Origin: Golubevia sp. BC0850 | Taxonomy: Eukaryota; Basidiomycota; Exobasidiomycetes; Golubeviales; Golubeviaceae | NCBI GenBank assembly: GCA_012976225.1 | Contig: JAAVVG010000008.1 | Coordinates: 744,001-808,000 of the forward strand | DNA: 64,000 nucleotides | Reading direction: 5' to 3' | Shown here: piece by piece, positions 22,875 to 55,011 of the stretch | Layout: every line of letters starts with the position of its first letter | Numbering within the stretch: the first letter of the stretch is position 1 | Program-made: the position numbers and the translations under genes | Notes under the pieces: model-generated | Databases searched by the model: none | Seen by the model: the letters and a program-made list of their open reading frames with translations, nothing else | Told to the model about the DNA's origin: nothing

Positions 22875-24165
22875 CTATGAGATGTTAGCCTTGATAGTAG
22901 CTTTTAAATCATTGAAGCCTGTGCCATAATGTTTCTTTAGTAGTTCGATGCTGGCATCATTGACGATAGTGATTCCAGCTCTGGGTGGAAAAGCAGAAAC
23001 GTCTTTCTCTTTGTAGTCTGGCTTAACCTCTTTGAGAATCTCTTGGATGTCTGCAGCTGAATATAGAGATGTAGCTGCCCAGATTCTTTGGTGGTCGACG
23101 GTTTCATCTAGAAGAGCGGCAACGTGAAGCTTAGCAACGTCATCGACATCGACGAAATAGGATGGATTCTGGAGGAAGAGGTCTAGGATTCCTTGCTCTC
23201 CATTGGCGAAAGCTATGAAAGCTGATGCCGTAGAGTAGAAACCGGGGGTAGGGTTATGGATCTTTCCAAAGACTGCATCTGGGAGGATGGTGTTGACTGG
23301 AGTGCGCACGAACAGAAGACGCGAGAAGAAGGGAAGACTGAATTAGATTGACTCAAAGGGGAGGGGGGTTTCAAGTCAACTCCTACTTTTACTCACCTCT
23401 GAACGCAGGCTGAGAGAGAAAGGCCGAGGGACAAACAGAGCAAGGAAGGTGCGGTCAGACTCGAACGTCAACAGATCGAAAAAGAATTTTCGGTCACTTA
23501 CCTTCTCTTTCTTGGTCCATCCCCAAACAGCCTTTTCTCCAGCTACCTTCGAAGCAGCGTAAACAATTGCTCCTTTTGCTGTTGGATCTTGGACGTGTTC
23601 AGCGATAGCGGCTGCTTCGTTGAACCAATCTTGATCGGTGTAAGTCTTGGGGTTGTTGCGATCTAAGTTGAAAGCTGCGGCTCTTGAAGATGTCAAAACA
23701 AACGACTTCACTCCTCCGGTAGCTTTGACGGAAGCCAGAACATTCTCAGTCATAGAGACAACTCCGTCCACGATCTCTTTGAGGTTTGGTGAAAACGAGG
23801 TATCGGATGCCACGTTGATGAATCCAGAGATTCCTTCGAAGGGAAAAGAAGAATCGATAGAATAGAAGATAAGGATGAAGCCTGAAGTAAGGAAAAAGAA
23901 AGCGGTCCGATTCTGACTCACCATCTAAAGCACCATCCAAGGCTCCTTTGACAGAGAGGTCTTTGACCTCCACGACTTCGAGAGCCCCTGCTCCGAACTC
24001 CTTTTCGGCTTTCTCCTTGAGTTGATCGAGCTTAGAGACGGTTCTGGTAGTGGCTCTCACTTTAAAGCCCTGGATCAATAACTGGTTCACTACTGCTGAG
24101 CCGATGAAGCCTCCAGCGCCAGTGACGAGGATGGTAGAGCCTGGAGCGAATTTAGTTGAAGACAT
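22875..24165 (-). CDS. NAD(P)-dependent extended SDR reductase, copy A (Gre2 / DFR-like)
   Basis: Exons 24165-23922, 23833-23502, 23409-23397 (13-nt microexon) and 23296-22875 give 336 residues. The Rossmann motif TGAGGFIG is near the N-terminus and the catalytic Tyr-x3-Lys is in IVYAASKVAGEKA. The family reduces aldehydes and ketones with NADPH (Gre2 methylglyoxal reductase, dihydroflavonol reductase, Ydr541c). The microexon join gives KPAFRVNTILPDAVFGK, a conserved stretch. A TATAAAAG box lies 112 bases before the ATG. Exon 1 and promoter are almost identical to copy B at 54.5-55.0 kb, but exons 2-4 differ clearly. Substrate unknown. Confidence 0.9.
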
Positions 24166-24413
24166 AGTAGTTGAGTTGATGAAGTCTTTGAAGGCGAGTG
24201 GAAGATGGCAAAGAGTTGAAGACTGGTGAGATGGAGTTGGGATTTGTTCCCCCCAGAAGTCTTTCAATCCTTTTATAGAGGCTGCAGGGGCTAAAGAGCG
24301 GTTGGTTAAAGTCCGGTGGTCCAGGAAGAGTTTCAAGGTATTTCTGGAAGAGCTATGTGCGCAGCTTTGCCTTCTCAGCGGAAGTCGTGATCCCAAGAGG
24401 CGACCTGGCGACG
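23911..24413 (-). repeat. 503-bp near-identical inverted duplicate, copy A (promoter + exon 1)
   Basis: Read on the minus strand, this block matches 54509-55011 on the plus strand over 503 bases with no indel and two substitutions that I could find, both upstream of the ATG. It ends about 11 bases into intron 1 (after GTGAGTCAGAA) and begins at CGTCGCCAGG. Flanking sequence on both sides is not alignable. Confidence 0.93.
24270..24277 (-). promoter_or_regulatory. TATA box of reductase copy A
   Basis: CTATAAAAGG on the minus strand, about 105-112 bases upstream of the start codon and conserved in copy B. Few other genes in the window show such a clear TATA element, which fits an inducible promoter. 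Confidence 0.7.
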
Positions 24414-25610
24414 GACTGACGGAGATAAGACTTCCGAGGCTCAACTCTCCCTACAAGTCTACAACCCATCAGTTCTCGTGACTTGCGTGACTTCTGCGTA
24501 ACTTTCTTGGGGGTCTTTGAATGTCAGATATCAGGCTTTAGGACTGGTGCTCTGTTCGGTGTATGGTTCGCTCGGATTTAGCCAGGCTTCCGTGAGAGCT
24601 TCGGTTCCTCTGTCGTTCATTCTGCCTTACATCACCTCAACAGACTGATCTTAATCCATCAATATCTACTGGAGACTTCAAACTTTCAGGATAAGGAAGC
24701 AGCTCTTCCGACATGAGGCAGAAGAACGTGTCGTCGAGGAAGCCGCAAAGTCGATTCTGAACTCCAGCAGCCCAGTGGACTTCAAGTTCCTCCCGGTTCT
24801 TTTCAAAGGAATGAAGACTGTTGAGGACTAGGTCTAACTTCTAATCAAAGTCCAATCTTGTATCAAAGAGAAACTGGATCAGATCGAGCACATCGATACC
24901 GACCAGCTTTTACTATCTATCAGCATTTAGATTGGACTACCGCTCTTTGCTTCTCCGTCTACGGCTGTTTCTCACTCATCAGCTACGATCTTTTAAGTGG
25001 TTTTTCTTCGAGTGAGGGTATCGAGACTGCCTAAAATTCAAGGACGAGGGAGAGAGAGACCTCGTTTGGATCGCCACCAAGACGCCGAAAGAAGCGTCAC
25101 CCTGGCGTCTCTCCTTTATAAGCACCTTGGACTCCATGGGTTGTTTTTGAATCTAGGATTTGAGGGAGACTCGGTTCTTTGGCCCATCAGGTGAGGAAAG
25201 GACTCAGTTAGACTCACTCGTCCTTCGAACATCGAAAGTTCGCATCAGTTTGGCTTCTTCCACGTTTCCGCTCTCTCTGGTTCTGGTTGGCTCAAAAGAG
25301 ATGCGGAAATAAAGTGCTTTCGAGTACAGAAAGTACGAGGAAGGAGAGTGGAGAGGTGAGAAGAAGCACCTGACCATCTCTTTGCACACTAGAGAGCCTG
25401 TGATATCAAGCGTGGAGACTTGTCTTTAGATATAATATCGTCATAAGATAGTGATACACATCAGAAACTCTAATCTGGTTGAGAAGTCCCTTCAATTTTA
25501 ATCGCGCTCAAGCGCTCAAGTCGTTCCATCTTCGCCAGCAGCTTCCCGCTTTCATCTCCAAGTCTCCAACTTCATCTTGGCGGGTCCCCTCTCACTCATC
25601 GTTAGTAAGC
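24414..25610. other. Intergenic with coding-like fragments, possibly a decayed gene
   Basis: About 1.2 kb between the reductase A promoter and the carboxylesterase. On the + strand, one frame from about 24680 to 25190 reads mostly like protein but is cut by several stops. One piece runs HEAEERVVEEAAKSILNS and ends FKGMKTVED at 24831; another reads IKEKLDQIEHIDTDQLLL. I found no start, splice pattern or family that joins them. It may be a pseudogene, a gene with short exons that I cannot resolve, or chance. Confidence 0.3.
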
Positions 25611-27653
25611 ATGGGATTAACAACCAGTAAGCTAAGTGGTTTCAAGACCATTCAAATCCCAAACAAAGGTGAAATCAAAGGTCTGATCTTGGAGGATTCT
25701 GAGACCAATCTCGTCAAAGCTCACAGGTACACTGGGGTCCCTTACGCTTTGCCTCCTGTAGGCGAGAACAGATGGAAGAGTGAGTTCAGATAGCCGGAAA
25801 CTTTCGCTCATGCAGTGTTCATCTGAGGAAGAGAAGCCTGAACATGTCTCTTTGTTTCGTTCATCCTACAGAGCCTCAAGCCCTGCCAACCGACTTTCAG
25901 TACGACTTTGATGGGAGACAGTATACAAACTTTGGGCCGATATGCTTGCAAGTGAGTTTATAAGATGCGCCAGTCTCCCAATTCGAGTCTATAGAAAGAG
26001 AGCAACATGTACAGCAAGACGTAAGGCTGATCCTCATGCTCTTCTCTGTTGATACTTTCTACACTGATTCATCGCTTCGAATCTTCTCTTGCAGCCAACG
26101 AACTACTCTCCAGACATCTCTCCTTCTCCGCCCAAGGTCACGAGAACTCAATCCGAGGACTGCCTTCTCCTCAATATTTGGGTGCCGCCCACTCAACCTC
26201 CTCCTCAAGGCTTCCCGGTCTTTTTCTACATACACGGAGGATGGCTTCAAGTTGGACATCCCAATCAAGATGCGATGAAAGACCCATCAGATCTCATCTC
26301 TCCGATCTCTGAAGGTGGAGCAGGGCTGAACGCTATCGTGGTTGCTCCTGGCTATAGACTCAACATCTTTGGATTTCTAGCTACCAAAGAATTGAAAGAA
26401 GAGAGTCAAGATTCAACTTGTGGAAATTATGGCTTCTGGGATCAGAGGTCAGCCCTAGAATGGGTATTCGAAAACATCTCTCACTTCAAAGGGAACCCGG
26501 ACAACATCTCAGTAGGCGGACTCAGTGCTGGTGCTCATTCGACTCACTCGCAATTACTTTACGAGTACATCAAGTCCAAAGAAGAGGAGACTTTCATGCC
26601 AATCATCAAACGGCTCTTCCTTCAAAGTAACGCAGTCTGTTTACCTTCTAAGACTTTGACAGAGGTGGCTTCTATCAATCAATTTGGAGAGATTTGCTCG
26701 AAGTTAGGAATTCAGGAGGACCTAAAGAATGAAGAGAAGTTGGAAGAATTGAGAAAGGTCGATGGACAGAAAATCGTGGATCTTCTACCAGCTTTGGAGC
26801 ACCACACTTTCCGTGCTGTGGATGACGAGAGTGAAAAGGGGTTTGTTAGAAGTAGTTGGATTGAGCAAACGAAAAGCGGAGAATTTGGTAGATGGTGTAA
26901 AGCGAAAGGTATCAAAATGGTTATAGGGGAAACTTCAGACGAGCAAACTCTCTACCGCATCATCAATTCTCCTACTGGCCCAGATTACGAGGCTTCTCTC
27001 TTGAATCAAGTCCATAACTACTATGTGGGTCCAGAAGCCTATCAGACACAGATCGCTTCGTCGCCACTGACAGCTTTCCTTGCCCCTTTCCAACGACGCA
27101 GCCTCTAGAAGTCTCCAAGGCTCTGATGTCTTGCCACCCGCCTCCAGAAGCCGCTTCCGAACGTGAAAAAGCAGCGCTTCGCCTAGGGAAGATTGCCTCG
27201 GATTCTCAGGTTCATGCCGCGGAACGCTGCCTTGTCGACTGGTTGAAATTGGGCGGGCTCACTAATCAAGACATTCTGAGGTACCGAGTTTCTTTCAGAT
27301 CTCCAATTCTAGAAACCTATACTCCGAAATGGATGGGGGTCTCTCATTCTTTCGACGACAGTCTCTGGTGGTTTGTTGTTCGTCAAAGAGGAGGCTTAGC
27401 CTCAGCGAGCAAAGAAGCGAGGGAGATCGAGAAACTATTCAAGACTTGGCTGGAGCCATTAGCGAAGTTCTTTGAAGGTGGAGATAGTGCAGAAGAGGCT
27501 GCTAAGCTCTGGTATGGTGGCAAAGATGTAAAGGAGGTCGAGGGAAATTGGATTCGATGTCTGGAGAAAGATGGGACGATCAGTGTCAGGAGTGACGAGT
27601 GGAGGGAGGAGAGAGAAATTGTCATTCGAGTCATCAAGAGCTTCAAGGGTTGA
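25611..27653 (+). CDS. Type-B carboxylesterase / lipase-like alpha-beta hydrolase
   Basis: Exons 25611-25779, 25872-25951, 26095-27024 and 27102-27653 give 576 residues with consistent phases. Landmarks of the cholinesterase/carboxylesterase family appear in order: YTGVPYALPPVGENRWK, the SEDCLLLNIWVP signature, the oxyanion strand YIHGGW, the nucleophile elbow GGLSAGAHS, the acid region VIGETSDEQ and the histidine region MGVSHSFDD. It hydrolyses carboxylic esters; substrate unknown. No signal peptide is visible (MGLTTSKLSGFKTIQ), so it is probably intracellular. The MG start followed by polar residues might allow N-myristoylation, but this is speculative. Confidence 0.9.
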
Positions 27654-28264
27654 ATCGTTGAAACCGATTTTGTAGTCGGGCATTTCTTTTGAAGGACAAA
27701 CTGTTCGCGTTCGTTCAATAATTGGAGGTGAACATAGTCTGACTTCCAGTCTCGCCCGGTGAAGCAAGAGGTTAACAGGGATTCGTGTTTGAGCTTCTGG
27801 ACGTCTCAACCTTCGCCGATCTCTCTTCTCTGGTTCGGATGAAAGAAAAAGCAAGAGCGGAAGAAAGTCGTCTCGCATGCAGCAAAAGGTCGAGATCAAA
27901 CTTGGACAGAGTCATCTGGAAAAGTCTATGCGATGTATTCGTTTCAAACCCGGAGCGCAACAAGAAGAAGAGAAACATCAAAAAGGAGAAAGAGAAGACT
28001 AGAGCAAGTTTGATGCGAAGCTTTCACCGGAAAATCGTAGGCAGAGGGGGATGGACAGGGAAGGATTTTGAGGTAAGGTCCTAAAGACTTGGTTGAATAG
28101 TCATTGAGATTGATAGACCGACCTAATTTATACAATGGGAGTTGAGAAAAAGTTAATAAAATGGCTTTCTGATGGGGCGAAAGATAAGGGAGAAAGCCCT
28201 CAAGAGGTAATTTCCTGACTTTTCGATTTGCATTTGAAGTAAGTCGTTCGTACTATCCCGGTCT
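27654..28264. other. Convergent intergenic region, no gene seen
   Basis: About 610 bases between the esterase stop and the carrier stop on the opposite strand. Only short, low-complexity open frames occur. Confidence 0.55.
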
Positions 28265-30071
28265 TCAATTCTTCTTCTTGAGAAGCTGTCTAGTCCAGAT
28301 CTCAAAGTAATCACGGAAGTAGAAGAGTAAAGCTTGAGAAAGAACGGCCTTTGTGATTTGAGCTTGCATACCCTGGTTGATATGAGAAAGAAGGGTTGGC
28401 GAAAGAGGAGATAGGTGAGAAACGAAAATAAGAGGCGAATTTGGTGAACTTCATCTCTACACAGAGCCAAGGGAGGTCGATTTTCTTCTCCTTTTTCGAC
28501 ATTCAAATCACTCACCTGATACCATCCAGAGATTCCCTTCTCAGCAGCGATCTTTCCCAAAACATCAAAAGCACCGGTATACTGAGAATTTTTAGCCTGT
28601 AACCTAATCTTAGAAAGAATATAAGGGAAAGTAACAATAGTAGCCAAAGTTTTAGAAACAGCACCAACCATGAAAGATTTCCAAGGAGTCATTTTCCCAT
28701 CTTTTGAAGCAGCTAGTATAATACCCTTGACTCTTTCAAATACACCATAAGTGATAGCAGGATTGACAGTCAAGACCAAACTTGGTTTCAAACCTCTCCA
28801 TAAACCAGTTACACCATCTTCTCTCAAAATGTCTTTAGCAACTCCAAGGAAAGAATCATCCTCCATTGCTTTTTCTGCTACTTTCTTTAAGGGTTCTGAA
28901 GCTTTTGAAGTGATTGAAGTGGAAGGATTGGTAGAATTTGAAGCTGGTGTTCCTGAAGTTGTGACTTTTCCTCTTGGTGGTCCATCCGATCCTAAATTAG
29001 ATGGAGAAGCTAATTGTTGACGAGTTGCAATTACTGAAACTGGAATTGTGAAGATTTGAGCTAATCCTCCAGCTAAAGCTCCCAGTAATAATTCAACTGC
29101 TGTTGCGATTTGAGTGGGAGCTTTTCCTCCTGGTGGAGTAACTCTACGAAGATAAAGAGTTCGAACCACCGTGTACCAGTAGAAGTATGCGAATTCTGAA
29201 AATAATGGAAAGGAAATGGAAAACGATGAAGTGCATGAGAAATGGCGAAAAGAGACTTTTGTAAATTGTGAAAGGATTTGATAGAGGAAGAGATTGGGAG
29301 GGGGACTCGCAAAAGACCCTTCCCGACCTCCGACTCCATGAATTCCATTTCCGCTCAAGTCAAGAAGATTGTTTATTCCTGAAGATGTAAATTGAACCTT
29401 TTGGGATGCCAGCATCTCCTTTGTATCCACCCTCGTCCTTCTTCTTAACCCGGTTCTCTCCTTTTGAGAGGGCCACTGCTGCCTTTGCCTCCTCTCCTCT
29501 CCAGATATCTCGGGTTTGACTAATGGAGAGACTCACGAGTGCTGAAAGTGTTAACCATACTAGCTCCAAAACCCCTATAAAGACCCATGATACCCTCTTT
29601 ACTCCTTGCCATCGTTATAACACCCTTGAATAGACCATCATTCTTCGAGATAGCGACCTGACCTGGGGCTAGCTTCTTCTGACCTGGCTTGTCTGATGGT
29701 TGACCAGCTTGAATACGTGTCTTGACTCTGTGAAAGTGAAGAGAAGAGAGGAGAGGAGGGGGAAGTGAGTTGAAAGATCAGTAGAAGCGGGTATCTCTTC
29801 TCTTCTGAAGTAGATACAAGATAGATACTAACGTATCAAGCGGATAGATGACGGCATTGGAGAACATTCCTGTTGAAAGTTTGAGGTCATGGGTTAGCCT
29901 TTTTGTTAGATTTCTTCTCAATTCCATCCATCTGTCAATTCAAATCCTCATCTCGAGATCGGATGCGGGGTGACCCGAGTGGAGAGTCGTCGAGTCGAGA
30001 GGAAGATAAGATGACTCACCTCCTAAAGCACCAGCCAAAGCGTTTCCGAAAGGTGTTAAAGGTTCAGCCAT
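28265..30071 (-). CDS. Mitochondrial-carrier-family protein, peroxisomal Pmp47/Ant1-like
   Basis: Exons 30071-30020, 29869-29833, 29727-29537, 29195-28516 and 28372-28265 give 355 residues with consistent phases. Three carrier signatures are present: YPLDTVKTRIQ, a degenerate IPVSVIATRQQ, and FPYILSKIRLQ. The C-terminus, GMQAQITKAVLSQALLFYF, resembles Pmp47, which imports ATP into peroxisomes for fatty-acid activation. A Ser/Thr/Pro-rich insertion of about 60 residues sits between repeats 2 and 3. The intron 29536-29196 is 341 nt and has a second good acceptor (CATCTTCAG near 29380), so an extra exon there cannot be ruled out. Six membrane helices are expected from the family. Confidence 0.85.
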
Positions 30072-30647
30072 CTTGAATGTGTTGGATTTTAGAGGATGTG
30101 TTGGAAGAGAATGTTGGGATGGACTGACAGAAGTTTAAGAAGATCAACTTCATTTCCATTTCAATAACCGGAAACACCGAAGCAACGTGAATCGACTCGC
30201 ACAAAACTTCCAACGAACAAGGCAAGGACAGATTCAAATGAAAACACTTAATATATCAATTCTAAATTCAAGAGAAACAAAAGAAAGAAAAGGGGGGGGT
30301 GGAAGAGTCGAGCAAAGAAACGGGACGAAAATCTAGAAAGGAGAGAGAAGAAAAACAGAAAAACGAGGTAGGTACTACTATAGAAATAAGAAAGAGAGAG
30401 TATCAACTGATGAAGAAGAGAAGTTGATTGTCTGAATAATTTTGGGGATTTGGTTGGGGGTTCATGAGAATGAAATTTGAAGTTACGGGTAGATTTTGGA
30501 ATCAATCGTTACACGGGTTTGAAGAGAGAGAAAGAGAGCTGCATGAACGGAAGGGACGAATGAGATTTGGATTTGAATTTGGATTATAGGTTGAAGTTGA
30601 TTGCATTTGTTGGAAGACTTGAAGAACGAAGTTTTGAAGGGTCTGAT
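30072..30647. other. Intergenic, no gene seen
   Basis: About 575 bases between the carrier start and the ARB1 stop, both minus strand. It includes a G8 run near 30293 and long GA-rich stretches. Confidence 0.55.
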
Positions 30648-33288
30648 TTACTTAGCTCCCTTGCCCGTCAACTTGGCTTTTTCGATGGCTTCCTGTGAAT
30701 TCTTCATTAGGAGCTTCTTGTAGTCGGCGATACCGATCTGTCGCGGAAAGAAGAGAGGAGAAAAGAAGAGGGAGAAGGGAGTTAGTAATAGCTCAGAGAG
30801 AGAGAGACAAAATGCAGCTCGAGGAGAGGAGAAGGAGGATGGATCAAAAACTCACGTCTTGCTTGGTCAAGTTGACAATCTTCTTGTCCTTAACTTCCCA
30901 AAGATCTTGAGCTACTTGAGAGATCAAACGGAAATCGTGCGCTGTACGTTGGAAGATTGGGGGGGAGGGAGGGAGGGGATTGAAAGAAAGAATCAGCATA
31001 CATGCGAGCTCAAGACGATCAAGTGCAAGAAGATCAACTTAGATTCTCAATACTCACAAACAATGACCACTCCACCCTCAAACTCCTTGATGGCAATAGC
31101 CAGAGCGTCAATAGATTCCATATCCAAATGATTAGTAGGTTCATCAAGTAAAAGAATATGAGGATTCTCCATAGCCAATTGAGAGAAAACGACTCTATTT
31201 CTCAAACCATCAGACAAAGTTCTAATAGCACTAGTTTGATGAGCACCAGTTAAACCAAATCTACCTAATTGTTGTCTCCAATATTGAGTTTCCTTATCAG
31301 GGAATTTAGCCTTATATAAACTTTCCATATATTCCAAAGGAGATTTATCATAAGGTAATTGATCTGCAGAATGTTGAGAATATTTTCCCAATTTCAATCC
31401 AGCATGTTTTTGAACTGATCCTTCAACAGGTTGTAAAGCACCAGTGATTAAGTTTAAAAGTGTAGATTTTCCAGTACCATTTTGACCAACGATAGCAATT
31501 CTAGAATCCATATCAATACCGAAACTTAGATCTTTATAAAGGAAATCTCTTTTTTCACCAGAGTAAGAGAAAGCGACATCATTGAAAGCGATGATAGGAG
31601 GAGGTAATTTTCTAGTATCTTCAAAGTTAAATCTTAAAGGTCTTGAAACATGAACAGGTTCAATTAAACCAGCAGCTTCCATTTTATCAATAATCTTTTG
31701 TTTAGATTTTGCTTGTTTAACTAAATTAGCATAAGTACCAGCAGAAGAAATGAATTTCTTAATATGAGCGATTTCTTCCTGTTGTTTTGCGTAAGCTTTC
31801 ATTTGATTCACTTCATTTTCTTGTTTGGTTCTAACATAAGTTGAGTAATTTCCACCATAATAAATCATTTTCTTTTGAGTTGTTAAATCCATAATGTTGG
31901 TACAAACTGAATCCATGAAATCAGCTGAATGAGAAGTGATGATCAAAATATGATTGTAAGTTGAAAGGTAGGCTTCTAACCAAACCACAGCTTCTAAATC
32001 TAAATGATTCGTTGGTTCATCCAAAAGTAATAAATGAGGTTTGATGAATAACGCTCTGGCAAGAGAGACACGCATTCTCCATCCTCCAGATAAATCTTTG
32101 GTTGGTTTTTTCATCATGGTGGTTGAGAATCCTAAACCGTGAAGAATTGATCCTGCTTTGGCTTCAAAAGTTGATGGATCTAGATCTTCTAATTCTTCGT
32201 ATTTGAGTTCAAGTCCTACTTCATCTACTACGTCTGCGACAGACATCTCTTCAATTTCTTTTTCTAGACGAGCTACTTTTTCCTTGGCAGAGTTGATAAT
32301 GTAGTCTAAAGCATTGATTTGAGATGGCTCAGCTTCTCCAGTAACAATGTAGATCTGTGTAAAGTGGAAGGGAGCGCAGCAAGATTAGAGGTCAGAAGAC
32401 TCAAGGTTTCAAGGTTGCTGTCTCTCTCTCTGATAGGCAACTCACATCGATGTGCTCTGGAATCTCGACATCACGAGCGGCTAGAGCTTCTAGGAAAGTA
32501 GTCTTTCCGGATCCGTTTTCTCCCAGGAGACCGTATCTGAGAGAAGGTAAAGGGAAGCGTAGAGGGTGGGAAGAGAAGTCGGGTTGAGTCTCTCTCTCGC
32601 CAAATCGAGCTCGGAAACTACAACCTTCATTTGATTCCAGGTTTCCTAACTTTCCATCATCAAACTCAGGAAGGATCATGTAGAGGTCGGAAGTCTTTCA
32701 ACTCCAAATCCCACGTTGGGGAGAGAAATTTTCTTTTTCTGCCTGCCAAAAGCTCCACTAATTCTCTCTCCCAGTAAGGTTCTCCTGTTGCCCCCAATTC
32801 CCGTCTCTTGGAATGCCAAATCTTGAATAATCCCAAAAGATCATTGGCTGCATCAGGTAAGTGCTCACCTTTGACCGTAATTGAGTTGAATGGTAGCTCC
32901 ATCAATGAGAAGTCTTCCATGGAAAGACATGGTGAATTGATCGATATGAATATCTCTTGATTTATCATCTGAAGTCATTGCACCTGAAGCATTTCTTTCA
33001 GTTGCCATTGCTAACTTTTTCATGTCCAAATCTTCAACCGAGGTGGCTGCAGAAGTGTTTGTTAATGGAGTTCCAGTTGAAGATGGAGCTGTACCAGAAG
33101 TCGCTGAAGATTCTCCTTTCGCAGCTTGCTTGGCCGCCTTTTCGCTGAGGAAGAGTGAGCATAGGAATAAGCAAGAAAGGGGAGATTAAGGAATGGAGAG
33201 AGTGAGTAGGGATGATTGATTAGAGTGAGGGACTCAAAACTTGTACTTACGCTTGACGCTTTGCTTTTGAAGCAGAGACTGGTGCCAT
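30648..33288 (-). CDS. ARB1: ABC-F ATPase, ribosome biogenesis/recycling factor Arb1 (ABCF2)
   Basis: Exons 33288-33251, 33144-32869, 32536-32446, 32354-31058, 30941-30856 and 30737-30648 give 625 residues with consistent phases. The N-terminus MAPVSASKAKRQAEKAAK matches Arb1. Two ABC cassettes are complete: Walker A GLLGENGSGKTT and VGQNGTGKST, signature motifs DLSGGWRMRVSLARAL and TLSDGLRNRVVFSQLA, and LLLDEPTNHLD in both. There are no membrane segments, as expected for ABC-F. Arb1 is a cytosolic/nuclear ATPase that shuttles with pre-ribosomes; it is also implicated in peptide release from stalled 60S subunits. The second intron is 332 nt. It is divergent from mL41 across 239 bases. Confidence 0.96.
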
Positions 33289-33527
33289 GATTGAGTGAAG
33301 GTTAAAAGGCTGTTTAAAGGAATAGAATTAAGTGATAGATTCTGATTGGAATTCCCTTTTGAAATGAATCGAAATTGGGCTCCGAAGTTGGGTAAGGGAA
33401 AGGAAGGAAGAAGAGAAGTTTCCAAAACGCACTCCACCAGCACAACCAGTGAAAAATCATACATCATAGGCCCCCTTGAGAGCTATCCAATCGCAGCCTG
33501 ACTAGTCAATAGTGACTCCTCACAACA
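33289..33527. promoter_or_regulatory. Bidirectional promoter, ARB1 / mL41
   Basis: 239 bases separate the divergent start codons of two translation genes. No clear TATA box is present. Confidence 0.5.
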
Positions 33528-34422
33528 ATGAGACCAACTTTAAATTTATTCGGTGCTTCAAGATTACCACTCACAAGTAAAAGGGCAAACAAGGATTTCT
33601 ATAAAGGTACGTTCTACCACCACCTCTCTCTTCTCACTACCCTAACCTCTAACCTCCCCTCCCCTCCCCTCCCGATCTCTCCTCTTTCAGGTACGAGGAC
33701 GGGGAATGTGATGCAAAGGAAACGCATAGCTTTGGCTGATAGGAAGGGAAGAGTTATCTATGATGAACACGGTAGACCAAAGACTTGGAATCTAAAACTT
33801 CATTCAATCGATGATTCAAGGTTACCTTGCTATGTCGTCCCTCCTGGCTTGGCTACTACGGAGGTGAGCTTCTTGACAGAATTAGACTTTTGAATCAGCT
33901 GGGAAGGGCTTGATGCAGAAGAGGAGAGAGAGAGAGAGAGAAGGTAGAAGCATTGGAGCTGCAGGACTTTCCAAGGTAATGAGGTCGCTGTGTTCAACAG
34001 CAGCTTCAAGCTCTCTCTCGACTTGCTATCTCTCAATATCTACTCTTCAAGCCAATCCGAATTCTATCTCAAAAGAGTCATACACTTCCAGCCAGTCTTC
34101 CATCTTCCAACCTCAACCATGACCCTAACGCCTATCTCTCTCTCTCCTCTCCCACCCATCCTTACCTTTACCTACTCCTCCTCCCCTTCTCCTTTCTTCC
34201 CCTTCTCAGCTACGACCCTACGTCTTCACAGGAAAATCAGGAGGTTCAGCGATCCCGCTTCCAGGTTTCCCAGGTGGACCAAAGATGACTTCTCATAGAG
34301 GTTTCGATTCAACTTACTATCAACTCATCAGAGATGAAAGTATGGAAAATAGGAAAAGGAATGAAATCATCGATAGAGATTTGAAAGAGGTTAGGAAGTT
34401 GAAGGTAGAGAGGAAAGAATGA
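33528..34422 (+). CDS. MRPL27: Mitochondrial large-subunit ribosomal protein mL41 (yeast Mrpl27)
   Basis: Exons 33528-33606, 33691-33863 and 34210-34422 give 154 residues. The start MRPTLNLFGASRLPLTSKRANKDFYKG is the typical opening of the MRP-L27/mL41 family in fungi (shown here only in part), followed after the first intron by TRTGN. Later come YVVPPGLATTELRPYVF and a charged C-terminal helix. It is a structural protein of the mitochondrial 54S subunit. The second intron is 346 nt, among the longest in the window, with a GA repeat near 33925 and a C/T-rich 3' half. The 3' end is convergent with SKI8. Confidence 0.9.
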
Positions 34423-34635
34423 TATGGGAGTGAGAGTCAAGACCAATGTACTTTTATTAAATCGCAAAATTCAAATTCTTTGTTGGGATGTTTTCCTTTT
34501 GGCTTTCGAAGAAGGATTTTGGGTGGTTTGAAAAGGAAAATGGGATTAGAAATGAAACAACAAGGAAAAACTACAAATTGGGATGAATTGAGCTTCCACT
34601 TTTTGTTTTCGATTTACAAAAGAGGGGATTCTTCT

Positions 34636-36508: not shown

Positions 36509-36636
36509 CTTCAAGAAAAGCTGCGTCTGTGGAGGAGAAGTCTGCGACTTGTTGCTGGAAAAGAAATTTGAGAGCTTCCTTCTGAACATCACAAGCCTCT
36601 CTCACCTTTTAGCAACCCCCAAAATAAGTAACAGTC
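36509..36636. promoter_or_regulatory. Bidirectional promoter, SKI8 / RBG1
   Basis: 128 bases between two divergent start codons. Both borders carry the same 11-mer ATGGTAAGTTC, one on each strand, because each gene's first coding exon is only the ATG. Confidence 0.6.
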
Positions 36637-45800: not shown

Positions 45801-45958
45801 GAAAAGGTAGAGTTGCTAGTTGGGTTTGGATCGTATTCGAGGAGAATGAAGTCATGAACAGCGATCGATTCATCTTGCTGCTGTTGTTCTGGAGGAGGAG
45901 GATGGAGCAGGCCTTGATAGGCCTGCTGAATTGCAGGATCCGAGAGATTCAAGCTCAT
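42883..45958 (-). CDS. ADF-H / coiled-coil / PH domain protein (actin-membrane linker candidate)
   Basis: Exons 45958-45615, 45436-43354, 43246-43184 and 43098-42883 give 901 residues with consistent phases. Residues ~1-155 look like an actin-depolymerising-factor homology domain (FILLEYDPNP, VLFALIRIQRKILIIQYF, then SGVKRARALVHGRAV), as in drebrin/coactosin-type proteins. The middle has Ser/Pro-rich segments with polyproline (PPPIGIPLPALPG, AIPPPPPADE) and long charged coiled coils rich in E, R and K. The C-terminal ~120 residues form a PH domain spread over three exons (VLSGNVTVQKSDATIWRRRF, YELRGSDLRLSKSES, IQLRGLV). The expected role is at cortical actin, linking filaments to phosphoinositides. 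I do not know a named orthologue. The long exon has many antisense open frames from its biased codons. Confidence 0.75.
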
Positions 45959-46502
45959 GTTGCTCTCCGTCCAAGGTAAGAGACGATGGATTGAAATTCC
46001 TCGATATCTTCTTGCTTTGAAACGATGGAAGATGGAGTGGTAGAGGATGATCGATGAGAGAAGTCGGTCTTTGGAGAGTCCCTTCTCGCCTTCTCTCCCT
46101 TCCACCACGCTAGCCCCCCCCCTTTTCCCACGCCCACAGGGCTTGACCTTTGCCCCTGAGATTGCCTCTTGAGTCTTTTGATTTACGCCAACAGCGCAGT
46201 TATCATCATGCAATTTCGGTAGGAGAGGCGCAAAAGTACATTTCGAAAAGTAGCTACTGTGGTACAGGACAAAGGGACAGAGAATATGAGAAGTTCATGA
46301 ATCGATTCGAAGATCTGGAATATGAAAGAAACTAGAGAAAGAAGGGAAATTGAATTTGACGGTGGCTTTGATGAGGAGAAGTGAGATTGAGGAGAAGATG
46401 AAAGGGAAGGGTTCCGAAAATTTGACAAAGATTGAGTACACCCTTCGAAGATCGTCCATCACTTCTGCGTCGTTGACTGGAAAGAGCAGCAATGAGGAGG
46501 AA
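45959..46502. other. Intergenic / promoter of the ADF-H/PH gene
   Basis: About 540 bases between two minus-strand genes. It contains a C9 run near 46112 and no supported gene. Confidence 0.55.
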
Positions 46503-49500
46503 TTACGACCTGGAGCCAGATCTTTGCATGTCACTAGGTGGTAAAGAAGCGAAGGAGTAATTTGGAGTCTGAGCTCGACTGGAAGGTCTTGACCTCTGTT
46601 GAGTTCTTGTTCTTCGAGTGGTTTGACTTGATCCAGCAGATGGATGACCGTAGGCGCTCCTAGAAGATGAGTGGGCGAAAGCAGAGTCGTGAAGGGTGGA
46701 AAAGATGGTAGAAGAACTTCCTTGGTGGAACAGAGTCTCTTCTTCTTCCTGTTGATTGTCAATGGCAGAAGAAGAGCTCCTTCTCGTGCTGCTTGGCGAA
46801 AAGGCGAGGCTGGGAGTCCCGCTTGGTTGAGAGTGAGATGCACTGTTGGTCCTTGATGACTTGACTCTGCGTCTTTTCGAAGAGGCAGAAGTTCCTTCCG
46901 AGACGTTCGAGTCGGCACCAGGGCTCATTCCTCTCTCCGTCCTCGAGTCGTAGTTTCCTTCTGCATCCCAAGGAGTTGGAGAGGCCGATCCGTAATTTCC
47001 GACTTCGATTCGATTTCCGTATTCGTCTTCTCCGTCCTCGATTGCAGCCGCCTGAGCAGCCTGCTCGTGTTGTCTCTTTCTCTGTAGTCCCAAAACCCTC
47101 AATCTTTCCACCCAGATATCGGCTCTGTCCAATGATTCTCCGAAGACTACAGTGACGCTCCTAAGAATGTCCAGACTTTCGACAGCCAGCGTCAGGACTC
47201 TGTTGGCGGCTTGGGCAGTGGCGGCTGCTGCCATCCTCTGTTGTTGAGCACCAGATCCGTGGCTGAGTGAAGAAGAGGACGAAGACGAAGGGCTTGAAGA
47301 ACGGGGACCGGAGCTCAGATGAGCAGGCGAGAAGGAAGGAGAGACTGGACTTCCACCGAAATTAGCTGCTCGAGCTCCAGCTCCACTGGTTGGAGTCTTG
47401 TTTACAGTGGCCCATCTTGCCGGTAGACTGAGGATGAAGGCCTTGACGCTTGATCGAGCTTGCTCTGGAAGGGCGGCTCCAGCGTACTTTCCAACGACGT
47501 CGACTACTCCTTTGATCGTGTTGACGACATCTCCCTTGATGGCAGCTAGATTTTGAGTGGCTTGAGTTGACATCTCCAGTTCTCCGTGATTGAGCTTGAC
47601 GATCAAATCTCTGAGGACCGTGATCTGATATTCAATGTGAGCGGTAGCGTACTGGAGCCATTGAAGACAGTACTTCATCGACTTCATGCTCTCTTCGCTC
47701 ATAGCTGCGCTCAATCCTCCAGCCGTCATTCCAGCTTCTACGATCATTGATCCCCATCTAGATCCGTTTGCAGCAGGTCCAGGCATACTGATGTTGCTTC
47801 TCGCAGCTCTGAGACCATCCGCAGCTCGAACGACCTGTCCAGATGATGTTCGGCCTCTGTTTCCGCCTTTAGGACCAACGAATCCAGCTTCTTGAGTTTG
47901 AGTATGATCTTGAATCCATCCACCAGATCCTTGACTGTGATCGACTTCGCTCATGTCGCTGTCTTCTCGAGATCTTTCTTTTCCTTTGCCTTTCCTTTGT
48001 CTCAGCTCGTTGACGACAATTTCTCTTTCCTTCTCCTCTAGTCTCAAGGACCAGTAAGCATTTCTTCTCTTTGAGATCTCTTCCGAAGACATGTCCTTCC
48101 ATTCGTTTCTAGACCTCTCGTCCAATTCTTCCATGATGGAGGCCTTCTCGTCTTTGGAGATAGCATGATCGGATGCTGACGGATAGATCTGGAGGGGGAG
48201 AAAGCACAGGGCAGTCAGTACTATTGAATGCTCGATCTTTGGTGCTTCTGAGCAAGCCCAATGAAGAGGTTTGATCGACTCACTCTATCCAACTGTCTGC
48301 AAGCGAAGTCGTCTAATTGTTCGACTCCTCTGTTTCCAAGCGAAGCTCCAAGCCTGCTAACTACCGGTCTAGAAATCGATTTGACTGAGGATTCTACAAA
48401 ATCAGCACCGTACTGTCGGAGAAAGAATTGAGAAGGGGAGAGTGGGAGAGGGAAGGGAGGAGAGGAAGAATCAGTCGAGAGTTCCGAACAAGCTCCCACC
48501 ACTGAAAGCCCTCCTATGCGCCAAGTCTTTCTCCCTTTCACATCAGATTTTGAGTCAAAGCTCCATGAAAGCAGGTCTCTTTGGCTCGACCTATCTGATA
48601 GGAGGGTGCAAGGTCATGCACCTTAACGAGGGAAAGAAGTCAAACCTTCCTACCTCCGAGTTCCTGGCTAGGCTCCACACCTCCGTCCTTTTCAAAGATC
48701 GATCCCTGGAACATCTGTTCCGAAGGCGTAACATCTGTTTCCTATGCCTTGTCTTGTACACCACAAATGCCAACCCACCCCTTTCCACGGCTTTGATCCA
48801 AACTCACCTTGACAACTCTGCTACTCTGTTTCCCCAGCTCATACGCCCTCAATGTACTCCTAACGATAGGCAAATGACTAATCCTCCTCAAAAAATCTTC
48901 ATCTTCCATCATTTCCTTGTCAATCTTGATTTCATTCCCATTCTCATCGTGAATAGTTGAAGGTAGTTGGAAGCCTTCGGGAAGATCTTTCAAGATGCTT
49001 GTAGATTGATCTAGATCAGTGCTGTTCGTTGAAGACCCAGCAACAAAATCAGATTCATCTGCAGAAGTTGAAGCAGAAGCAGAAGAGGAAGTTGGGTGTT
49101 CATCTCCTCCGTAGCCAGCTGCACCACCTCTTCCCGATCTCAAGCCACTTGTTTGAATTCCTCCTCGGTTTGAATGGGATTGAGCATAGAGTTGAGCTCT
49201 GGATGAAGTAGGTTGAGGATTCCTATTCTGAGCACCAGCAGACACTCCCGAGACTGAATTTGGTGGGGAAGTGAAGGAGGTCTGTGTGAAATCAGTAGCA
49301 GGAGTAGAGGTGGATGATGGAGTGGAGACTGCAGACGAGGTCGAGACGGCTGACCCTGTGAGAGATGCCCCTGTTTATCAGAGTAGAGTTTAGCGAGAAC
49401 AAAGAGAGAAAGAAGAATCAGAGACTGAAGAGGGAATCAAGGACAGTGGGGAACATGTGGGTCAGCAGCACTCACCATCATGAGATCTCTCTTCCATCTG

Positions 49501-49893
49501 AGTGTCCTCTTGGCCATGACTTCCACCGCGACTTGGCCTAGGAGAAGATGAGTTTGAAGATGAGCCGTCAAGATGCTTCATTGCACCTAGAGCCAGGATT
49601 GCGATCTTGACATCCTCATCCTCTGCATCGACCCGATTCTGATTCTGATTCTGCTGCTGCTTTTTTTGCTGCTGGATTGGAGTGGGTTGATCTGCTGTTG
49701 TGGAGGTAGTGGATTCTAATTGATCTTGTTCTTCCAGGTCATCATCGTCTGTTAATGGAGCTGGAGTTGGAGCATCAAAGTCATCGGAATTTGACCGATA
49801 TCTTAGCGCAGAGGAGGGAGAGGAAGGATCGAGATTCTGCTTTGAGGATGATCCCTGAGATTGATGTGGATTAGCTTCAGTTGAGTCTTCCAT
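46503..49893 (-). CDS. OPI1: Opi1-family transcriptional regulator of phospholipid genes
   Basis: Exons 49893-49476, 49370-48808, 48412-48284 and 48188-46503 give 931 residues with consistent phases. Opi1 landmarks are DVKIAILALGAMK near the N-terminus, a central block reading YELGKQSSRVVKYGADFVE and FACRQLDR, and the C-terminal activator-interaction block YCLQWLQYATAHIEYQI. In yeast Opi1 is held at the ER by phosphatidic acid and Scs2 and represses INO1 on release. A DDFDAPT segment at about residues 37-43 resembles a weak FFAT motif (inference). The protein is over twice the length of yeast Opi1 (404), mainly from Ser/Gln/Pro-rich N- and C-terminal regions. Confidence 0.88.
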
Positions 49894-50321
49894 TTTGAAG
49901 ATGGATTGAAGATCCTATGAATGAGTTGAGTGGATTCGAGTTGAAAGAAGTGTTGAAGTTGGGATCAGCAGTTTTGAATTGAATTGAATTGACCAAAATC
50001 CTTGCGAGCGCGTGAATAGAGCTTTCTGGTCCGTGCCTTCTGAGTTTGTTGGATATGATACCACAAGAGGATTGCAACTCAAAGAAGAGAAAGAGAAATT
50101 AGAGCGAAAGAAGGAAGGAAAGGTAGGTTGGGGCAGATCTCCTTTCACCAAGTCCTCTTCCACAAAGGTTCCTGGGAAGAAACTCGCAAAAGTCAGAACT
50201 GTTGTGATCGCCGTCCTTACTCGATATCCGCACCCGGAATTCCAATGCACAATGAACAAAATTCATTCCCAATCGCAGAGCCGTTTCACTTCAGCCAAAG
50301 CGCCAAAGAATTAAGAAAGGC
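49894..50321. other. Intergenic / OPI1 promoter
   Basis: About 430 bases upstream of OPI1. One minus-strand frame and one plus-strand frame are open but match nothing I recognise. Confidence 0.45.
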
Positions 50322-50707
50322 TCAAAGGCAGATGAATGACCCCTCCCCCAACATCCCTCCTTTATCTTCATCATCTTCTTTCAAACCAGATATTGAGAAC
50401 TGAACCTCATTTTTGATAGTTTGTACATATCTCGATCAGTTTCTAATCTTACCTTTGCTATCTTTAGTCGTTCATCCCCTCCCATGATTTCCACGTCTCG
50501 GCGGTACTTCAAACCCTCGAACCGAACGAAGGTGGCGGTGGCACCTGTTGAAACTTGAAACATTGAGCCACCTTGAAAGAGTACTCCTTCAGGTGACAGA
50601 GAATTTGCGAGCTTGAATTTGAGCTCAAGTTGAGCTGTAGCAATCACACGACAGTACTTCGAGAGTTCTAAGATGTCAATTTGCCACTCCAAGAGCTCTC
50701 CAAACAT
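50322..50707 (-). CDS. Small hypothetical protein
   Basis: A tentative two-exon model (50707-50453, 50399-50322) gives 110 residues in frame. The intron is 53 nt (GTAAGA...TTCAG). The first exon reads like a folded protein (LEWQIDILELSKY, GATATFVRFEGLKYRRD). The second ends in an acidic, Gly-rich tail. I do not recognise the family. The start is 103 bases from the stop of the upstream minus-strand gene, so it may share its transcript region or have a very short promoter. The model rests only on phase agreement and open frame. Confidence 0.4.
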
Positions 50708-50810
50708 AATCGAACTGAAGCTTCAAGACTGACAGAAGAAAAGAAGAAGAAGGTTTGTATTCCACAGGTATACACATAAACCGAATACAGATGAAAGGAA
50801 GACGCTCCTC

Positions 50811-53029
50811 TCAGCGCCGAGGAGAATTAATGGCAGGACTTGCAGGTCGAGGAGAATTTCTTCCAGAGATGACTCCACTAGCTGCTCTTCCTTTTGCTGA
50901 GGCAGATGCTCCAAGACCTATGGTAGTAGCTCTTCTGTCTCCTTTCGAGGAAGCAGACTTATCAGCTCCGGCAGAAAGTCGATTTGAAGCACCCATTACC
51001 AAATCCCGAATCATAGAGTCGTACATCTCCGCGTCCGCCGAGTGAGATTCTCGAAGAGTTAAATGATGCGTGAGGAGTGATGAAGAGCTTGTAGTTAAAG
51101 AGTGAAGTTCTCGAGAGAGAGATCGTAAAGCTGGAAGGGATTGCAGAGTGAGTTGATCTGGCCAGGAAAGGGATGTGGCGAGAAGATGAGAAGTCAGTGA
51201 GAGCTGAATTATGCCAGAAACTGATAATTCGCGTCGTAGTTGATGACCTCAATTGCATAAACTCACCTTCAGTAAGAGCAACAAGTTCCTCAGCTCTCTT
51301 CCAATCCAATTCGGGAGCTGGACCCAAACCCAATTCCTCTCTCCTCCTTTCTGCCATTCTCTCTCCATTCGTTCCAGAATTAAGACCAGGACTTCCCGTT
51401 CTTGGAGTACTACTAGTACTAGCTCCAGTACCGGGAACCAATCCAGATTGAGATCTTTTTGGAGGACCTCTTGCATCGGACCCAGGAGCTGAGCTGGGAC
51501 CAGGAGTTCTTGGAATAGCACTGTCCAAGGTTAGAGCTAGAGGAGGTAGTGTTGATCGACCTCCCATTCCAGAGGAAGAGACAGAGACTTCATCCAAATT
51601 GATTGGGATGCCTAGAGAAATCAAAGATGATCGACGAGTGAGAGAACGAGTCCAAGAGATTGGTTGGAGGGAGGGAAGCTTCGAGAGTTGAGAGAAGGCT
51701 TGCCGACTGGAAGAGGAATGAAACGCAAGTTATCAGATCAGTCAAAGTAGCGAAGAAAGAGGAGAGGACTTCGACTTCAGATTGGTAGACTCACCTTTTC
51801 TCACTGACGAGAACCTGCGAACTTCCTTCCACTTGTCGAAGTCTTTCCGTCCCAAGCAAATCCCCAGATCCATCATTATAAGGATAAGGTCTGGATCCAG
51901 AAACAAGGGGTGGTGAGAGAAGCTCTCTAATTTGAGCTGAGACTGACTCTGAGGTCGAGTTTAGATCCACTTGAAGGCAAGGCTGGAAATTAGATAGAAG
52001 AAGAGGCAAAAAATTCAGCTTTGGACCATTTGCAGAGCTTTGAGGAATTCTGTGTAATTCACAATCTCGAAAAGAGAAACAGAAAGGATCTTTATCAAGA
52101 ACTTTGGTCCCATCTTCGATCCTGCAACCCCCACTCTTTTCTCCTCACCTGTCAAAGCTACACATAATACTCACCCAGTTCGCTGAATTTGTAGTCTGCT
52201 GTACTCCCTGAGCTTGCGTCGGCTGAACCACCTTCTCTTGCATCTCAGGTTCCAAACTTCCATCATCAAAGTCACCAAAATCTCCGAAGTCATCATCTGC
52301 CTCTCCACCGTCATTCCCATTAGTCTCTCCAAAGTCATCGAAATCATCGAAGTCATCTTGAGGAGCTGGAGGAGTGATCGTTGGAGGTTCAGTGATGATT
52401 GAAGTTGAAGCTGCTGGAGGTTCTTCCACTGCTTCTTTAGGTTTCGGACTTGGAGCTGGAGTGTCAAAATCTTCGAACGAATCTTCTTCTTGAGTCTGGT
52501 TCTGCGATTCGGTTGAGATTGGAGGTTGAATTGTAGGTGAAGTTGTGGGAAGATCGCTCTCTTCATCTCGGATGTCCTTTCCTAGGCTTTCCTCCTCTTT
52601 GATCTCCTCTCCCTCTTCTTTCTCGACAGGCGTAGGTTCTACTTCTTTTTCTTCTGGTCCAATCGTTTCCCCCTCGAGCTGAGTCTCATCGGCACTCGGT
52701 GATGTCTGTTCTTGAAGTTGAGCAACTTGCGATTCCTCTTCCTTGTGCTCGAGTCCCATTTGATCCAATTGAGGTATCGGATCTTGATCTTGAGTCTTTT
52801 CTGGTTGAGTAGCTGGACTTGATGGTTGATCCCAAGTTGGAATGGAGTCATCTGCGAAGAGTCGATTAGAATTAGAAGTTTGACCTTCTTGAGACGATAG
52901 ATTTAGAGATGGAGATCCTATCGATTCTAGAAAGTCTAGCGAAGTCTTTGAATTTGAGGTCGTTGGAATTGTTGACGTTACTGGAGCTGAAGAAGGTTCA
53001 CCCCAAATTGAGAAAGGATCGTCTGCCAT
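50811..53029 (-). CDS. Acidic DF-repeat protein, aftiphilin/Laa2-like AP-1 cofactor candidate
   Basis: Exons 53029-52175, 51982-51795, 51706-51267 and 51157-50811 give 609 residues with consistent phases. Residues ~1-285 are disordered and acidic with clustered phenylalanine motifs: SFEDFDTPAP, DDFDDFDDFGE and DDFGDFGDFDDGS. Such DF/FGDF clusters are typical of adaptor-binding trafficking proteins such as aftiphilin and yeast Laa2. A helical region follows (RQAFSQLSKLPSLQPI), then a Ser/Pro-rich linker and a C-terminal helix (ADAEMYDSMIRDLVMGASNR). I assign it to clathrin-adaptor function by motif and layout only. It shares a 108-base promoter with the WBP2-like gene. Confidence 0.55.
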
Positions 53030-53137
53030 TGAAGGAAATAAAGATAGTGTGGTGGGTGGGTTGGAGAAGGACTTATTGGAGATCGAGGTTGCTCTTTCCT
53101 TCTTGACAATTGACAATCGCACAACTATCAATTCAAA
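53030..53137. promoter_or_regulatory. Bidirectional promoter, Laa2-like / WBP2-like
   Basis: 108 bases between divergent start codons, the same spacing as the ACT/NOSIP pair. No TATA element is seen. Confidence 0.5.
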
Positions 53138-54332
53138 ATGGCGTTGAATTGGGTTCAAACTACATCTGAAGGAGATAAACCACTTCCACTACCTCAAGAG
53201 AAAATCTTTCAATCCATAGAAGGTTGCAGTCTAAGGTGAGTGACCCACTGCTGCGACAGCTGCTGCAATCGCCAATCTCACTCTTTCCATTCATGCATGA
53301 ATATGAACATGAATCCGCAGCTTAGAATTCAGTTCCACAAAAGACAAATGGACAGCCAAAGGAGCTTCCTTCGTTACATCTCAAAGGATTATCTTCTTAA
53401 GACTACCACCACTTCCCTCTCCTCAAGATCCAACAATTGCTTCTCCTCATCTACGATCTCTATCTGTTCCAATAGAGAGACTTTTAGAAGCAAGATACAT
53501 GATTCCAATCTTTGGTTCCCCTTACTATGAAGCTAGAGTTCTACCAGTCAAAGATGGAGGATTACCACAACCTGCTCAACAACAAGGAGTTAACGGAAAC
53601 GATGCTGCAGGATTGGGTTTGCTCAAGATTTGGTTTGAAGGTGGAGGTGGGATTCAATTCAGAGAAGCGGTGGAAGAAGTCAAAGCAAGATTGGATGAAC
53701 AGGGTGGGAAGTTGAATCACCTGGAGCAACTGCGTGAGTGTGATAGAGTTGCGCAGTATAGAGACACAAGGCAGGAGCTCTGCTGTAGCAAGGAAGCCAT
53801 GCTCTGAAACAGAAGTCACTCGAGTTTGGAAGAAAACTCAGGGAGGTGGAAGCAGTGCAACCTTAGCAGCAGAGCTTCTTTGACTGACTTATCACCTCTC
53901 CCATTCCCAACGCTCTCCCTCTCTCTCAAATCCTTCCCCTTTTTTTAAACATCCCATTTTGCTTCTTCAGCTTCATATGAGCCACCTCCATCACCCTCTC
54001 AAGTCTCTCATTCCGCCTCTTCCTCCTCAATCGCACCTCCAATCTCAACTTCTCCCACAACGAGGCTCTCAAACTTAGCTGTCGAAGACCCAGCACCCTC
54101 CTCCAATTCAACAACATCAGAGCTTCCTCCAAGAACAAGACCTCAAAGATCTGGAACTCTACCTCCGGATTCCACAGATCTAGAGGCAGCTCAAGTAGCT
54201 CGAGAAAACGAAGAGATGGAAAATCAAGAAAGGTTGAATAGAGATGCTGTACAACCTCCTCCTCATACTGAGGTGCAGACTGCTTCTGGAGAAGGGGCTC
54301 CTCCTGGTTATGAAGAAGCTTGTGAGAGGTAG
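53138..54332 (+). CDS. WW-domain-binding protein 2-like GRAM protein
   Basis: Exons 53138-53235, 53321-53733 and 53971-54332 give 290 residues with consistent phases. The opening MALNWVQTTSEGDKPLPLP followed by EKIFQSIEGCSLSLEF is the WBP2/GRAM start. Next come KDKWTAKGASFVTSQRIIFL and FGSPYYEARVLPV in the same fold. The C-terminus is Pro/Ser-rich with a PPGYEEA motif, a PPxY ligand for WW domains such as those of Rsp5/Nedd4 ligases. GRAM domains bind lipids at membranes. The 237-nt last intron has an earlier, weaker donor that also keeps the frame but gives a poorer join than PSYEPPPSP. The gene ends about 180 bases before the duplicated promoter block of reductase B. Confidence 0.85.
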
Positions 54333-54508
54333 GGGGAGGGCGAGGGGTGAGGTCACATTTCGCTCGTTCTCTTCAAAGGTTTCACAACTGTACACTTATA
54401 AGTTGATGTTTTCAGATAATGCTTCGATTTCAATAGTCCAAGTTCTTTGGGATGAGAGAGCCTCGATGGAATCAGACGTGAGACTGTCGGCAGGCGTAGT
54501 TCCGTCGT

Positions 54509-55011
54509 CGTCGCCAGGTCGCCTCTTGGGATCACGACTTCCGCTGAGAAGGCAAAGCTGCGCACATAGCTCTTCCAGAAATACCTTGAAACTCTTCCTG
54601 GACCACTGGACTTTAACCAACCGCTCTTTAGCCCCTGGAGCCTCTATAAAAGGATTGAAAGACTTCTGGGGGGAACAAATCCCAACTCCATCTCACCAGT
54701 CTTCAACTCTTTGCCATCTTCCACTCGCCTTCAAAGACTTCATCAACTCAACTACTATGTCTTCAACTAAATTCGCTCCAGGCTCTACCATCCTCGTCAC
54801 TGGCGCTGGAGGCTTCATCGGCTCAGCAGTAGTGAACCAGTTATTGATCCAGGGCTTTAAAGTGAGAGCCACTACCAGAACCGTCTCTAAGCTCGATCAA
54901 CTCAAGGAGAAAGCCGAAAAGGAGTTCGGAGCAGGGGCTCTCGAAGTCGTGGAGGTCAAAGACCTCTCTGTCAAAGGAGCCTTGGATGGTGCTTTAGATG
55001 GTGAGTCAGAA
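54509..55011 (+). repeat. 503-bp near-identical inverted duplicate, copy B (promoter + exon 1)
   Basis: The partner of the block at 23911-24413, in opposite orientation. Two substitutions (one near 54607 and one near 54639) and no indels were found by direct reading. All 244 bases of exon 1 are identical. Confidence 0.93.
54645..54652 (+). promoter_or_regulatory. TATA box of reductase copy B
   Basis: CTATAAAAGG, 105-112 bases before the ATG at 54757, identical in sequence and spacing to copy A. Confidence 0.7.

Follow-up and report, generated by a model that had tools for sequence, protein, structure and literature searches.

The stretch analysed here, hereafter the window, comprises 64,000 nucleotides (nt) of contig JAAVVG010000008.1 (positions 744,001 to 808,000) of Golubevia sp. 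BC0850, a fungus that comes from powdery mildew pustules and was tested for biocontrol (PMC7272565), and it holds two inverted genes, A and B, which are predicted reductases. Coordinates below are positions in the window unless a contig is named, and the genome searched comprises 25.77 Mb in 64 contigs. Gene A (22875..24165, minus strand, ATG at 24165) has the exons 24165-23922, 23833-23502, 23409-23397 and 23296-22875, and gene B (54757..56032, plus strand, ATG at 54757) has the exons 54757-55000, 55084-55412, 55505-55517 and 55611-56032, with the stop codon included in the last exon of each. Both were spliced by hand into four exons with intact frames, which give proteins of 336 and 335 amino acids (aa), respectively. 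The third exon is a microexon of 13 nt (23397-23409, minus; 55505-55517, plus), which was also modelled in 7 of the 8 other paralogues used and which automatic gene finders may overlook.

The two proteins match the epimerase-family profile PF01370 (E = 6.7e-15 for A), and the best solved chains for B by sequence were a ketoreductase (9phg), aldehyde reductase 2 (8jqj/8jqk) and aldehyde reductase II (1ujm/1y1p). The glycine-rich cofactor motif, TGAGGFIG in exon 1, and YAASK or YSASK in exon 2, which we take to be the YxxSK (YxxxK) motif of short-chain dehydrogenases/reductases (SDRs), were read from the translations. On these matches A and B are classed as extended SDRs, aldehyde-reductase-II-like. 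The products resemble the known enzymes (PDB 1ujm, 1y1p, 8jqj, 9phg) along most or all of their length, a likeness in sequence, with substrate and activity only predicted.

A block of 503 columns without indels is common to the two genes (copy A, 23911..24413, minus; copy B, 54509..55011, plus), and it consists of 248 bp of promoter and 5' leader, the whole of exon 1 (244 nt) and the first 11 nt of intron 1. Direct alignment reproduced what a preliminary description of this DNA had claimed, namely that the block holds only 2 mismatches, both upstream of the ATG, and that exon 1 is 100% identical (no differences over 244 bases, 243/243 over whole codons). The mismatches lie at block index 98 (A 24315/B 54607), 150 nt upstream of the ATG, and at index 129 (A 24284/B 54638), 119 nt upstream of it, leaving 246 of the 248 upstream positions identical, with TATAAA at -112 in both genes. 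Beyond the edges the ungapped identity of A and B is at chance level on either side. A repeat search recovered the same inverted pair with arms separated by 30,095 nt, in line with the 30 kb first reported, and also gave weaker arms across the later exons (74-80% identity). Moreover, the longest identical run between A and B is 373 columns, while the maximum was 69 when the 299 differences were redistributed 20,000 times over the 1,524 aligned columns.

The later exons differ clearly from this pattern. In the coding sequence (CDS), exon 1 has no change at its 46 fourfold sites, exon 2 is identical at 243 of 330 positions (73.6%) with 22 of 44 fourfold sites changed (synonymous divergence, dS, 1.35; nonsynonymous divergence, dN, 0.17), and exons 3-4 are identical at 344 of 432 positions (79.6%) with 16 of 49 fourfold sites changed (dS 0.69, dN 0.14). 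The contrast at fourfold sites, 0/46 in exon 1 versus 38/93 in exons 2-4, is highly significant (P = 9e-9), and the low dN/dS of the diverged part (~0.12-0.20) suggests that both genes are functional. The tree of exons 2-4 joins A and B as sisters with support 100, on branches of 0.12 and 0.20, and in that of exon 1 their branches are near 0, so that the segments of one gene pair give conflicting ages (distance ~0 in exon 1 versus 0.32 in exons 2-4). Judged by this divergence, exons 2-4 of A and B are old paralogues.

A protein search of the fungus's own genome listed 51 matching pieces, from which 10 paralogue loci were retrieved and 8 usable models were obtained; together with A and B these make 45 pairs. 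Two loci were excluded from the table of pairs and from the trees, L042 being broken in exon 1 and L047 distant, and weaker matches (e.g., on C64, C4, C33, C2, C16, C5 and at C44:305k) lay outside the comparison. Fourfold divergence was 0.45-0.81 in exon 1 and 0.46-0.81 in the later exons for 41 of the 45 pairs, the pooled values were 697/1146 (0.61) and 1635/2724 (0.60), and exon 1 was the less diverged part in 20 of these 41 control pairs. Since they are equally diverged in both parts, exon 1 is under no special synonymous constraint, which bears out the earlier statement that selection would not freeze the synonymous sites of one exon. The four exceptions were A-B, L039-L040 (0/41 in exon 1 versus 31/94 later, P = 2e-6), L039-L043 (4/40 versus 30/88, P = 0.003) and L040-L043 (4/39 versus 28/89, P = 0.008), of which the last three have copies in common and are therefore not independent. 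Two of the retrieved loci appear defective, L038 (C7:386800-390000) with an in-frame stop in exon 2 and L042 (C49:30000-33200) with a frame broken in exon 1; each is a pseudogene or an assembly error, and neither has a comparable step in identity.

Around the block, homology is strong downstream, from exon 2 on, and weak upstream. The 40 bp upstream of block A (24414..24453, minus) retain weak residual likeness to the 40 bp upstream of block B (54469..54508, plus), the global score being 27 where shuffles gave 6.5 ± 4.6 (P = 0.002) and the local test giving P = 0.07; the values were P = 0.006 (global) and 0.20 (local) over 100 bp, and 0.08 (global) and 0.99 (local) over 487 bp. Identity does end 11 bases into intron 1, as described, but the rest of that intron, which had been called unalignable, is still homologous in part (local score 38 versus 20.3 ± 3.4 in shuffles, P = 0.004). 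Introns 2 and 3 were above shuffles in global alignment, and the 3' flanks of A and B had no homology above shuffles. Thus the tract appears to be embedded in older and wider homology, which a two-sided conversion requires, with thin evidence on the upstream side.

We conclude that the block very probably reflects a recent ectopic gene conversion between two intact inverted extended-SDR paralogues, and the tract would be young relative to the duplication that gave rise to A and B. The preliminary description had favoured the same reading, which remains the best one given the old paralogy of exons 2-4 and the family controls that exclude a freeze of exon 1. Two inverted reductase genes, now on the same contig and 30 kb from each other, would have arisen by an ancient duplication. 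Later, a double-strand break close to either promoter would have been mended with the paralogue as template, and copying would have stopped where the copies had already diverged, in intron 1 on one side and ~250 bp upstream on the other. The outcome would be a core promoter and an N-terminal segment, including the glycine-rich cofactor motif, that are common to both genes, with exons 2-4 (the YxxSK motif among others) staying different. It had also been proposed that two reductases now stand under one promoter, which applies to the core 248 bp only.

Evidence from another strain comes from P0025, a metagenomic conceptual protein of 287 aa on a 2,112-base ENA contig, known as protein only, which extends from the upstream flank of B itself across the block into intron 1 of B. 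P0025 is apparently a B-locus allele of another strain, and it supports B's junctions from a separate contig, with the block in the same orientation next to B. Compared with B, it has 5 differences in the 167 codons of the block, and the flanking codons (88 upstream, 32 downstream) are unchanged (P = 0.077); at the sites where A and B differ, one base must be that of A and the other is most simply that of A. Over the 167 codons the visible differences are 2 between A and B, 4 between A and P0025 and 5 between B and P0025 (one allele, protein only), which hints that A and B differ less within one genome than B does between strains, in numbers too small to settle it. The scale of divergence between strains is indicated by P0041, a JGI protein that differs from the paralogue L045 at 2 of 193 residues.

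Hybrid SPAdes, with a largest k of 111, built the assembly from Illumina reads together with PacBio subreads averaging 3,542 bp (PMC7272565). The layout of both blocks is probably correct, because the mean long read exceeds the 503-bp repeats in length. At k 111 SPAdes may merge, as bulges, differences between the copies that lie in the central part of such a block, and those nearer the unique flanks should survive. The vulnerable middle covers block index ~240-391 (-8 to +143; 152 bp), so the 100% identity of exon 1 may be slightly overstated, and the main pattern is not such an artefact.

Several points weigh against conversion as read here. The tract ends sharply on the upstream side, and past that edge homology is weak, with a local test that is not significant; the block of P0025 is near-identical as well, and the exchange may thus predate the split of the strains or recur; and a search for the A locus in other strains gave P0025 alone, which is of the B type, leaving A's junctions without an independent copy. 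The first of these points is what would be expected of the main rival to a two-sided conversion, a one-sided templated replacement (break-induced or ended by microhomology), in which strand invasion was anchored in exon 1 and the donor promoter was copied outward until it stopped at unrelated DNA. Besides the sharp edge, this reading draws on the short repeats TCCGTC and GTCGCC seen by eye at the junction, on the search with the promoter half, which found no relative besides A and B, and on the pair L039/L040 described below, whose tract abuts DNA that blastn could not align at its upstream end. Nevertheless, the 40 bp past the block align above shuffles from end to end in the global test, and the protein search of the genome gave no sign, within the window, of an old exon 1 displaced upstream of A or of B, so that we consider one-sided copying unlikely, though with a real chance of being right. 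Very improbable, in our view, is a recent duplication whose 3' parts were later replaced from other paralogues, in which the 5' identity would be original and the 3' divergence imported. The near-trichotomy of the 3' parts of L039, L040 and L043 would suit such a history, but in the tree of ten genes the 3' part of A groups most closely with that of B (support 100), and no third donor was found.

The two remaining explanations concern selection and the assembly itself. Exon 1 and the core promoter could have been frozen by function in both copies, for example by an RNA element or an overlapping gene, and at the amino-acid level exon 1 is indeed the best conserved of three segments when A is compared with 7 of the 8 other paralogues, and likewise for B; yet its fourfold sites are as diverged as those of later exons in the 41 control pairs, and P0025 has 5 visible codon changes within the block, which makes such a constraint scarcely credible. 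Hybrid SPAdes could instead have merged two diverged 5' ends or wiped out copy-specific differences, and bulge removal at a largest k of 111 could erase differences in the middle of the block. Sequences diverged like exon 2 (74%) should not merge, though, and the two differences near the left edge of the block survived; all 17 fourfold sites that exon 1 has beyond the vulnerable middle are identical, versus 38/93 changed later (P = 0.0004); the mean PacBio subread of 3.5 kb exceeds the block; P0025, on its separate contig, carries B's junctions; and an artefact alone cannot easily give two diverged 3' halves one common 5' half. An assembly artefact is thus very improbable, and ectopic conversion between A and B is the reading retained.

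Two further candidates were rejected. A mobile element or dispersed repeat is unlikely, as the search of the own genome with the promoter half (E ≤ 10) matched only A and B, a missing match not proving rarity, and inspection by eye, with no dedicated test, revealed no terminal repeat at the block edges. A background control compared 19,801, 19,587 and 7,901 bp of the window with the own genome, and the matches listed outside their own place were 67-77% identical where long, and shorter matches reached 88% over 138 bp and 95-96% over 37-75 bp. The control is weak, because in the two larger comparisons one candidate each stayed without a score and the list lacks even the place the query came from, so that a long near-identical copy could be missed. 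A site-directed inversion switch found no support either, since P0025 has the same arrangement of B's upstream flank and B's intron 1. As a rare event, the intervening 30 kb could be inverted through the 503-bp inverted repeat with both genes left intact.

The divergence of exons 2-4, clear as the preliminary description had it (38/93 fourfold sites), is not even along the gene. A run of 47 identical nt occurs in exon 4 (A, 23092..23138, minus; B, 55769..55815, plus; permutation P = 0.0006), and CDS positions 732-810 have 0/12 fourfold differences versus 38/81 elsewhere in exons 2-4 (P = 0.001, with limits set after seeing the data). The run is possibly a second and shorter converted tract. 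The same stretch is the best conserved of four segments in all 6 other pairs checked (0.79-0.92), which argues that constraint contributes to it; the pair L039-L040 reaches 0.92 there, with 1 of 11 fourfold sites different.

A similar 5' pattern, with homogenised 5' ends and diverged 3' exons, was observed in a second branch of the family, formed by L039 (C21:149000-152000), L040 (C21:71000-74000) and L043 (C26:127800-131000). L039 and L040 lie 78 kb apart in the same orientation and are near-identical from ~147,385 to 150,478 of contig C21 (3.1 kb; 92-100% per 100-column step, with 27 of 31 steps at ≥97%). Their identity falls inside exon 2 to ~80% in the remaining exons, with 4/244 differences in exon 1, 4/125 in intron 1, 7/101 at the start of exon 2 and then 45/170, and their 3' flanks are unaligned. 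With positions in these three genes counted from the base aligned with the start codon of A and B, the upstream end of the C21 tract lies ~2.6 kb upstream, and L043 shares with the C21 pair an older stretch from ~-77 into exon 2. The frames of all three genes begin at -96 and thereby add 32 in-frame residues at the N terminus, so the stretch shared with L043 begins inside the coding sequence and the promoter is not homogenised there. The trees place L039 and L040 0.017 apart in exon 1 and ~0.26 apart in exons 2-4, where the three genes form the near-trichotomy mentioned above.

Upstream of the C21 pair, within the near-identical tract, lies an open reading frame (ORF) of 279 aa, which had no match in Pfam (E ≤ 0.01) or NCBIfam. 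The region around it (L048:7350-9000, i.e., C21:147350-149000) belongs to a large dispersed family of at least 47 matching pieces, most of them 65-76% identical; of the ORFs tried in this region, neither of two matched Pfam and the one tried against NCBIfam had no match. The C21 tract is thus more than a promoter and an exon, because it covers an ORF of a dispersed family.

Among the ten genes compared there are three homogenised 5' tracts (A/B, L039/L040 and the older one with L043), and all of them cover exon 1. Three tracts from two branches do not suffice to establish polarity, and the candidate tract in exon 4 of A and B lies at the opposite end of the gene. We therefore propose only tentatively, and with more doubt than confidence, that the reductase family undergoes recurrent 5'-anchored ectopic conversion from breaks at promoters, in which a common regulatory and cofactor-binding "head" is maintained while the "bodies" encoded by exons 2-4 diverge freely, a form of modular concerted evolution.

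Elsewhere in the window, the neighbours of A and B are genes for a glycogen debranching enzyme, a carboxylesterase, a mitochondrial carrier, an ABC protein, Opi1, an LAA2-like protein and an aldehyde dehydrogenase, and an Rfam search of the window gave no match. Among the named records listed for the glycogen debranching protein, the nearest was that of Exobasidium rhododendri (67%), with other Ustilaginomycotina next. Just downstream of B lies an undescribed dispersed repeat of ~350 bp (56321-56678), with copies of 77% identity on C8 and C63 and shorter pieces of 70-81% on C62, C8, C11 and C61. The last 140 bases of the window (63861-64000) are copied elsewhere on C63, at 88% at 663599 and at 96% over ~75 bp at 703679.

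The A/B pair is another instance of the known phenomenon of interlocus gene conversion, and what it adds is the recurrence within one family. A literature search, with most subscription papers outside its reach, returned no report of this locus. In the human fetal gamma-globin pair the 5' part is converted and the 3' part diverged, with a boundary within an intron, but those genes are in tandem and the converted region is longer, whereas A and B are inverted, 30 kb apart and fungal. Meiotic conversion at yeast ARG4 and HIS4 has a polarity in which tracts begin near promoters and fade into the gene; that polarity is allelic and was measured in crosses, while here any polarity would be read from paralogues, without crosses. 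Ectopic conversion between paralogues of Aspergillus flavus/oryzae, said in the available part of that report to have been hardly described there before (PMC12844118), resembles the present case in being ectopic and fungal, and in copepod GOT1 divergent regions persist next to converted ones (PMC3728101). As far as the accessible parts of these two reports go, both have the mosaic of near-identical and strongly diverged parts between paralogues that is seen in A and B, and A and B differ from both in that their tract, in an inverted pair, takes in the core promoter together with exon 1 and that a similar 5' placement occurs in a second branch of the family.

In a yeast of the smut lineage, two inverted paralogues thus offer what is very probably a clean ectopic conversion that extends across their core promoter and exon 1. 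Given the similar 5' placement in the second branch, conversion between dispersed paralogues may have a polarity, as allelic conversion does. Conversion at the 5' end may hold regulation common while the enzyme bodies diverge, and gene trees of such families depend on the exon that is chosen.

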